Shown: piece by piece, positions 979-29,036 of the stretch
Layout: the number at the start of each line of letters is the position of its first letter
How positions within the stretch are numbered: position 1 is the first letter of the stretch
From: Actinomycetota bacterium
GTDB lineage: Bacteria; Actinomycetota; Actinomycetes; Actinomycetales; Microbacteriaceae
Length of the DNA: 49,107 nt
Direction of reading: 5' to 3'
NCBI GenBank assembly: GCA_009704535.1
Contig: WLEA01000003.1
Location: 1-49,107, forward strand
Translations under genes and position numbers: made by a program
The notes under the pieces: generated by a model
The model's input: the letters and a program-made list of their open reading frames with translations, nothing else
The model's database searches: none
What the model was told of the DNA's origin: nothing

Positions 979-1614
979 ATGAATCAGAACTTTCACCGAC
1001 CGGTTCGAATGACCACCGAGCGCCTTGAAGCATCCCTCTCGGGTGACCCCGCAGACTTTGTCATCGACCCCGCGGAAGCCTCCGCCATCGCTCACCACAC
1101 GGCCCGAGCGCTCCTAGCCAGGGGACGAGATTTCGACAGTGACGAGTTGGTGCAACGCCTTGTCGCATTTGCTGATGAACACGGTCTCGACACCCTGGCC
1201 GAGCTTTGGGCCCGCTCCTCTCCAACCAGCCTGCCAGGCGCCCTTTGGCGGCTCTATCTGGTGCGTGCGATTCTGCAACACAACCCAGAGGATGCCAGCG
1301 AGTTGTTCCAGCGGGGAATTGACGAGCTCAGCACCATTGACCAGGTTGTCGCCGGAGCGCCGAATCCCCTGAGCGCTGAGGGGTTCTCTGGCCTCCTCGA
1401 TGACATACTCCACGGGGCTTTTGTCGGCGAGCTCTCCGAGGCGCTCAGCCGGGCTGCTGCCGTTGCCAGGGCCGTCTCGGCTGGGGCGATCTCGCTGGCC
1501 TGGCTGTCTGAAAAGCAAGCTCACTATTTGACAGGTCGATCGCTCAATTGGAGCGTCATCGCAGGCGAGCTGGCGCAGGCTGCTTCGGTGGCACGATCTG
1601 GAAAACTGGACTGA
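979..1614 (+). CDS. Conserved actinobacterial hypothetical protein
   Basis: 211-aa ORF with coding-like composition; no confident family. Confidence 0.7.
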   Translation: MNQNFHRPVRMTTERLEASLSGDPADFVIDPAEASAIAHHTARALLARGRDFDSDELVQRLVAFADEHGLDTLAELWARSSPTSLPGALWRLYLVRAILQHNPEDASELFQRGIDELSTIDQVVAGAPNPLSAEGFSGLLDDILHGAFVGELSEALSRAAAVARAVSAGAISLAWLSEKQAHYLTGRSLNWSVIAGELAQAASVARSGKLD

Positions 1615-1648: not shown

Positions 1649-1727
1649 GCCGAACCGCAGTAACCCCGGGCTCCATCATTAGCCGCCTAGAGCGGCCTCG
1701 CGCCGAGAGGCGTTTCTGCGGTTCGGC
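1649..1727. other. Structured intergenic element: 12-bp closing stem with two internal hairpins; possible bidirectional terminator or ncRNA
   Basis: GCCGAACCGCAG (1649-1660) is the exact reverse complement of CTGCGGTTCGGC (1716-1727); internal GCCGC-CTAGA-GCGGC (1682-1696) and CGCC-GAGA-GGCG (1701-1712). Confidence 0.75.
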
Positions 1728-1733
1728 GCTTCT

Positions 1734-2684
1734 TTAGGGCACTGCGGGTGGTTCGTGGGTCTCCACGGCAACGATCTGGGGGGTTGGTGTGGTGAGCGAG
1801 AAGTGAATCACGCTGAAGCTTCCAACATTCAAGCTCGCTGCCCTCTGGAGGCTCTTGCTAGAGCCCCCGTTACCAATTTCTGCCGCAGCAGAAACCAACT
1901 GAGGCAGAACGGGGCCGTGTGAACAGATGACGGTGCCTTGGCGCTTAGACACCCTCTTCTGCACGGCGGAAAAGGGTTTAGTGCCCTTGGACTGATAGGC
2001 ATCCTGGCTGATTCCCGCCGAGGTCTTGAGCTCGAGCTGACCCTTAGCCAGGAGTGGTTCGACGGTGCCGATGCAGCGAGCAGCGGTGCTGCTGATCACC
2101 CGCTCTGGGCCAAAAGCGAGAATGCCACCGGCGACCATCCGTGCTTGGGTAAGACCTTTGTGAAGGAGCGGCCTGCTGTGGTCTGGCCCATCCCAGGCTT
2201 CAGCGGGCATCGCTTTGGCATGGCGCAGAAGAATCAGCGGAAAGGTTTTGGCTCGGCCGCTCTCATAGAGAGAGTTGAAATTCTCCAGGATGTCGGCATC
2301 ATGCTCGTAGGTGAGCTTCTTCATTGCTTTCTTGAGGGGCATCCATTCCAAGGCAAAAATCTCGTCGTTGGATTCAAACGGTGATCGTTCCGCTTCACCG
2401 GGATCTACTTCGGCCGCCCAGTAGTGGACCTCTTTAGGTTTTTTGCTGGGAAGAAGGTAGTCAACACGACCCAGATAAGCGCCGAGAGTGATGTGGAGGC
2501 CGGTTTCTTCCAGGATTTCCCTTTGGGCGGTTTCTGGCACTGTCTCACCTGGGTCACATTTGCCTTTCGGCAAAGAAACATCCTTGTGCTGGGTTCTATA
2601 AACCAGGAGAACCCGCACTTCGTTATCGACGACCTTCCAACAGACTGCTCCGCCGGCCACCACCGTCTCCGGGGTAGAACTCAT
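1734..2684 (-). CDS. mutT1: NUDIX hydrolase fused to histidine phosphatase domain (MutT1-like)
   Basis: Nudix box [23 protein letters not shown], then the LRHAKA phosphohistidine motif and a CSHGPVLP motif. Confidence 0.85.
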
Positions 2685-17838: not shown

Positions 17839-18081
17839 GATTTTCTCTCCTTCACCGGCAGGTACGTGCCGGACGATCCTTCGTGAATGGATGGCCCACC
17901 TATTTGCTGCGAGCTGGTTGCCATTATGCCAGGTTTTCCAGCACTCACTCTTCCCGGGTAGCCATGCGCCAGCTTCCGGGTTAGTATTGCCCCTTGGCAT
18001 CTCTCAGCTCCCGCTGAGGAAATGTTTGCCAGTCTGGGATGAAGCCCCAAGACAGACACTGTTGCTGAAGAGAGAGTTTCG

Positions 18082-18992: not shown

Positions 18993-19065
18993 GCCGGCTT
19001 GGCGCAATTGGTAGCGCATCCGACTTGTAATCGGAAGGTTGCGGGTTCAAGTCCCGCAGCCGGCC
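18993..19065 (+). tRNA. tRNA-Thr (anticodon UGU)
   Basis: Cloverleaf: GCCGGCT/AGCCGGC acceptor, GCGC/GCGC D-stem, TCCGA-CTTGTAA-TCGGA anticodon arm, GCGGG-TTCAAGT-CCCGC T-arm; 3' CCA apparently not encoded. Confidence 0.95.
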
Positions 19066-28787: not shown

Positions 28788-28841
28788 CTCCGGGGAAGGC
28801 AACGCGAAATTGGGCCGGAAAATTTCCAGCCTGGCGTTCAC

Positions 28842-28966
28842 GCCTCCTCTCATCCGGACTATTACCGTCGGTCTGGGAGTTCCACCCAGTCAACCGCCGA
28901 CAAATTTCTTTGCAGTCGGGTCGCGGACTATCACCGCCGGTTCAGATTTTCACTGACCCCGGAGCA
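28842..28966 (-). ncRNA. FMN (RFN) riboswitch upstream of ribD
   Basis: Minus strand GCTCCGGGGTCAGTGAAAATCTGAACCGGCGGTGATAGTCCGCGACCCG...ACTGGGTGGAACTCCCAGACCGACGGTAATAGTCCGGATGAGAGGAGGC matches the RFN consensus. Confidence 0.95.
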
Positions 28967-29036
28967 CGTTTACTATGCTTCACTATACGGTTTATGGCCT
29001 GGAAATGGGCAGCCAATAATGACGATGAGGTTACCC

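Follow-up and report, generated by a model that had tools for sequence, protein, structure and literature searches.

A probable structured small RNA gene with class-wide conservation in the Actinomycetes and a near-invariant C-rich strand

To our knowledge, few small RNAs (sRNAs) conserved across the actinobacteria are known beyond the housekeeping RNAs, 6C RNA and Ms1. The two stem-loops of 6C RNA contain C runs about six residues long (PMC4046766). Ms1 is a structural relative of 6S RNA and binds core RNA polymerase (PMC9130861). Within Streptomyces, PMC8388888 describes scr2952 as an expressed sRNA of S. coelicolor (Vockenhuber et al. 2011) that is conserved in more than half of the tested Streptomyces; the same source states that scr2952 and its companion sRNAs are in Rfam. 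The gene SCO2951 encodes a malic enzyme (PMC7494193). Here we describe an element at positions 1649 to 1727 on the plus strand of the window (the whole 49,107-nt stretch of DNA that was analyzed). It is one copy of a conserved structured RNA with a 79-nt core, and comparison with relatives indicates that it is very probably a noncoding sRNA gene in its own right, with conservation that extends through the class Actinomycetes. Like 6C RNA (RF01066), it is small, structured, C-rich and actinobacterial and forms an independent gene. It differs from 6C RNA in its three-way junction, its GNRA and UNCGA loops and its internal CCCCGGG strand, and it has no match in Rfam. Ms1 and 6S RNA offer a second parallel, as conserved actinobacterial noncoding RNA that possibly acts on a protein partner, but no such family was matched, the fold differs, and so does the size.

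The element lies in a convergent gap of 119 bp; in the six remaining convergent pairs of the window, as called from ORFs, the genes either abut or share 4 bp. The first-pass annotation had drawn attention to this gap, and the main features that it described are present. A perfect 12-bp inverted repeat, GCCGAACCGCAG (1649 to 1660) and CTGCGGTTCGGC (1716 to 1727), forms the two strands of helix P1. This helix encloses two hairpins: P2 (GCCGC-CUAGA-GCGGC, 1682 to 1696) and P3 (CGCC-GAGA-GGCG, 1701 to 1712), the latter capped by a GNRA tetraloop, GAGA, at 1705 to 1708. Two further pairs, P1b, join A1662 and A1663 to UU within 1713 to 1715. The J1/2 strand between P1b and P2, CCCCGGGCUCCA (1664 to 1675), is unpaired in the comparative fold and near-invariant, and it is a candidate binding site. 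P1 is followed by a U/C-rich tail, GCTTCTTT (1728 to 1735), which is the likely transcript end and which shares bases with the convergent gene's stop codon. An additional stem proposed in the annotation, GCCTC/GAGGC (1695 to 1699 and 1707 to 1711), can form in this copy, but it is intact in just 31 of 99 relatives, compared with 99 of 99 for P2 and for P3, and we therefore regard it as incidental. Both strands were folded over 131 nt, as the annotation had suggested. The plus strand gave a z-score of -0.78, which is not significant, and the minus strand gave a z-score of -1.86, which is mild only. In addition, the minimum-free-energy structure of the window copy favors an interior pairing different from that of the comparative fold. 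With folding scores of this size, the anatomy alone is indecisive, and it is the comparative evidence that decides.

Forty relatives were searched by BLAST with positions 1560 to 1780 as the query, and nearly all of them had one strong site per genome. Beyond the nearest species, the matches were essentially confined to the element, at 77 to 93% identity, and reached other families of the order. Covariance models were built from 19 copies (R1) and from 41 copies (R2). In its own genome, the window element was matched as a single copy (99.7 bits; E = 7e-16). Among relatives, where the first-pass annotation had proposed a search of this kind, 228 of the 395 Actinomycetes genomes gave matches, representing 65 of 124 genera; most carried one copy, and some carried two or three. 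Five of six near-complete genomes of the window's own genus contained a match, and in two phylum samples there was no match in any genome outside the class. A pattern scan of named genomes identified carriers in Pontimonas, Cellulomonas, Microbacterium, Agromyces, Curtobacterium, Leifsonia, Rathayibacter, Nesterenkonia, Ornithinimicrobium, Promicromonospora, Micropruina and Propioniciclava, as well as in Mycobacterium/Mycolicibacterium, Nocardia carnea and Rhodococcus. The scan pattern left out Streptomyces-type copies by design. Those came from the covariance model and occur in 6- to 10-Mb genomes of one genus, with malic-enzyme and HelD-like neighbors; from this context, we infer that the genus is Streptomyces. 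A long perfect palindrome in intergenic DNA might also suggest a mobile or repetitive sequence (REP/BIME or integron attC-like). That reading is scarcely credible for an element that is present once in its own genome and usually once per relative, that keeps its synteny with one neighboring gene, and whose P1 sequence drifts with compensation.

The predicted fold is a three-way junction of P1/P1b, P2 and P3, which would leave the CCCCGGG-YYCCA strand exposed. In 98 distinct sequences, standard pairs filled 98.5% of the pair cells. The number of pairs changed on both sides was 10 of 23 with 19 sequences, 14 of 23 with 41 and 15 of 23 with 98, and both the double-change cells and the covariation score exceeded every shuffle and were far above the slid controls. 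P1 and P1b covary freely. All 12 pairs of P1 are changed on both sides among the 98 sequences, with compensated variants that include GCCGAACC/GGTTCGGC, GCCTGGTC/GACCAGGT and ACGGTGCC/GGCACCGT, and the two pairs of P1b, likewise changed on both sides, occur as AU/GC/UA and GC/AU/CG/UA. The first-pass annotation had staked its proposal of a functional RNA more elaborate than a terminator on compensatory substitutions and conservation in relatives. Both are strongly present, the latter across the whole class, and to this extent the proposal is supported.

The interior of the element is far more constant. P2 is near-invariant, with one covarying pair (its second, CG/UA/GC) and a loop that is mostly UNCGA; its resemblance to a T-loop is only a suggestion. 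The three upper pairs of P3 are invariant, and its loop is GNRA in 98 of 99 copies (GAGA in 76, GUGA in 14 and GCGA in 8), with GACA in 1. Within J1/2, which reads CCCCGGG-YYCCA across the copies, the CCCCGGG and the final CA are identical in 99 of 99, a figure that is partly ascertained by the search, since loci L051 to L130 were found with a pattern that held the core and P2 motifs, and the invariance of these motifs there is partly built in. That pattern left P1, P1b, the NRA of the P3 loop, the promoters and the tails free, and CCCCGGG is equally invariant in the 19 copies found by BLAST (set A1). RNAalifold offered a pairing of CCCCGGGC with P3 as an alternative; its mean probability was 0.15 and never exceeded 0.5. 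Both sides of this pairing are invariant, so covariation cannot judge this conformer.

SigR and SigH are sigma factors of the thiol-oxidative and heat stress responses. In order to assess the regions flanking the RNA, promoters and tails were counted in 121 distinct loci aligned on the 5' end of the element. A TANNNT -10 box starting 10 to 20 nt upstream was present in 94 of them (background, 1.0%). The motif GGAAY-N16-20-GTT was present upstream in 52, with near-identical spacing (background, 0.36%), and was most regular in mycobacteria, Streptomyces-type genomes, Microbacterium and Agromyces. This is the form of the SigR/SigH regulon promoters, for which the published SigR consensus is GGAAT-N18-19-GTT (PMC9205884), although about half of the RNA copies, the window copy included, show a housekeeping-like -10 box only. 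One or the other promoter type was found at a fixed place 5' of the element in 113 of the 121 loci, while an antisense control from the 3' side returned the two types in 1 and 0 loci. In the window, the -10 box is TAGAAT (1637 to 1642), with no clear -35 element and no GGAAY-N16-20-GTT motif; AGAAC at 1616 to 1620 may be a weak remnant of the GGAAY -35 sequence. The position of the box, 7 nt upstream of the predicted start, places that start at about G1649. The RNA is predicted to be transcribed in the window organism, and in lineages with the ECF promoter, its expression would be expected to be induced by stress.

The position of the promoter also bears on two functions that had been put forward for the element at the outset. 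A 3'-UTR RNA is not supported: in most loci a promoter separates the element from the stop codon of the upstream gene, lying directly upstream of the element in the 113 loci noted above. A bidirectional terminator is at odds with signals that are one-stranded: the promoter is found on one side, and at least five U residues within 12 nt after P1 were counted in 43 of 121 loci on the sense side (background, 2.6%) compared with 7 on the antisense side. The location in a convergent gap and the CTTCTTT after P1 could still prompt the view that the element is merely a bidirectional or elaborate terminator of two convergent genes. However, a terminator has no need of a near-invariant interior, a dedicated promoter precedes the element on one strand, and the element also occurs in nonconvergent contexts, all of which makes this view very improbable. 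The P1 stem and the CTTCTTT tail may well be the end of a transcript, but one within the RNA's own gene. A loose scan picked up additional U-tailed hairpins within 80 nt at 16 loci, the strong ones mainly in Streptomyces-type genomes and Nocardia. A small ORF or other coding sequence was considered separately and rejected: element lengths, mostly 76 to 84 nt, differ by single-nucleotide steps rather than by multiples of three, and there is no stop-free frame common to all loci, each frame having stops in some copies.

The window element and the Streptomyces-, mycobacteria- and Micrococcales-type copies matched no Rfam 15 family at the gathering score, and permissive thresholds gave chance matches only for the same copy types. 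In the literature searched, we found no description of the class-wide family, the fold, the SigR/SigH-type promoter or the mycobacterial and Micrococcales presence. The Streptomyces member of the family is probably scr2952. This assignment is based on gene context and numbering: the Streptomyces-type copies sit between the SCO2951-type malic enzyme and HelD-like helicase genes, which is the place that the name scr2952 implies. Despite the statement in PMC8388888, cmscan assigned the Streptomyces-type loci to no Rfam family. That source reports scr2952 for Streptomyces only, with no class-wide family, fold or stress promoter. We regard the RNA as a new family among the structured bacterial sRNAs.

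The neighborhood of the RNA varies among lineages. In the window, the upstream gene (979 to 1614, plus strand) encodes a 211-aa protein that matched nothing in Pfam, NCBIfam, PDB sequences or PDB folds and that is modeled as all helical (AF2 mean pLDDT, 85). Of 129 loci, 79 have a homologue close to the RNA, in Micrococcales and Propionibacteriales; 63 of these homologues lie immediately 5' on the same strand, and 14 are convergent on the 3' side. The gene is a conserved neighbor, which does not imply a functional link. The convergent gene in the window (1734 to 2684, minus strand) encodes NUDIX and histidine phosphatase domains according to Pfam and is a lineage-specific neighbor, close on the 3' side just in the window's genus and a few others. 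Among the Micrococcales and Propionibacteriales, 24 loci (e.g., L016, L052 and L243) have DUF47-pit beginning 33 to 343 nt downstream on the same strand. Streptomyces-type copies are flanked by a HelD-like gene and malic enzyme, and in some mycobacteria accD is convergent with the RNA. From these varying neighborhoods, we conclude that the RNA is not tied to one mRNA. A phosphate neighborhood recurs in Micrococcales, with DUF47-pit (phosphate transport) downstream and, in the window, NUDIX-ppk on the convergent side.

Some of these arrangements would suit a cis-acting leader, similar to a riboswitch or attenuator, that controls DUF47-pit, malic enzyme or another gene downstream. DUF47-pit follows on the same strand in the 24 loci just described, as does malic enzyme in Streptomyces-type loci, and in one locus (L046) a terminator hairpin lies between the RNA and malic enzyme. 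The 3' neighbor is nevertheless convergent in the window's genus, in some mycobacteria and in much of the Microbacteriaceae. With 3' neighbors that differ and are often convergent, and with no consistent same-strand downstream gene, cis regulation is not the general role of the RNA, and we consider the leader hypothesis improbable.

The comparative sequence data firmly support the identity of the predicted gene, its strand, the position of its promoter, its fold and its mostly single-copy distribution; its mode of action is less well supported. We favor a stress-linked, trans-acting RNA that would bind a conserved partner through its invariant core. According to this proposal, transcription would begin at or near G1649 on the plus strand, from the promoter directly upstream, which in many lineages would be of the SigR/SigH kind (GGAAY-N16-20-GTT). 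The transcript would end in the U/C-rich tail after P1, to which some lineages may add a separate intrinsic terminator. The three-way junction of P1/P1b, P2 and the GNRA-capped P3 would keep the CCCCGGG-YYCCA strand open, and this strand, together with the hairpin loops, would be presented in trans to the partner.

Other C-rich sRNAs pair with G-rich translation-initiation regions, and CCCCGGG-YYCCA might likewise pair with such regions of several mRNAs under the control of a stress sigma factor. The exposed, invariant C-rich strand, the RNA's own promoter and tail and its typical size are consistent with a base-pairing sRNA. On the other hand, the 12-nt complement of the core occurs in the window genome only within the element itself, and the exact complements in relatives are few, at sites that are neither homologous nor shared. 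The anti-Shine-Dalgarno-like CUCC is absent in the Streptomyces-type (GGGCCCA) and GGGUCCCA lineages, and P2 and P3 equal the strand in invariance. Complementarity to 16S and 23S rRNA was no better than for shuffled sequences. Short, imperfect mRNA targets are compatible with the absence of exact complements and of rRNA complementarity, and we treat mRNA pairing as a real possibility, though a doubtful one. For the trans-acting RNA that we favor, a partner that is a protein or ribonucleoprotein has a little less than an even chance of being correct. It is somewhat likelier than mRNA pairing because whole hairpins, and not just a seed, are near-invariant. A more specific and rather unlikely proposal is that this uncatalogued class-wide RNA works as a ribonucleoprotein controlled by a stress sigma factor, in which a three-way junction with GNRA and perhaps T-loop-like (UNCGA) hairpin loops would present the invariant CCCCGGG strand to a core cellular protein or machine. 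If this were true, the RNA would rank with 6S/Ms1 or tmRNA as a regulator.

An RNA of this kind, usually single copy and present in roughly half of the Actinomycetes genera sampled (mycobacteria among them and, by context, Streptomyces), with an almost invariant core, often a redox-stress promoter and no matching Rfam family, can now be annotated in many genomes with the covariance model, and its putative partner and stress role are testable in tractable species.

Several further observations were made during this work. At the gathering score, the known RNAs in the window are an FMN riboswitch (28838 to 28971, minus strand), an msiK RNA (17841 to 17899, minus strand) and a tRNA-Thr (18993 to 19065, plus strand). 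Cellulomonas telluris carries two diverged copies of the present RNA in one genome (L051 and L125). A diverged copy in family f20 (L050; G242:C1:1105741-1105846) spans 106 nt with an expanded P2 region and is possibly a distant subtype. Two Arthrobacter replicons of 0.75 and 1.0 Mb (L243 and L242, respectively), filed as plasmids, each carry an RNA copy in a DUF47-pit context. The RNA, the 211-aa gene, DUF47 and pit are also found together in a GenBank record labeled "Bacteriophage sp." and UNVERIFIED (L241; MT835541.1, 27651 to 33729), which looks like actinobacterial chromosome mislabeled as phage.
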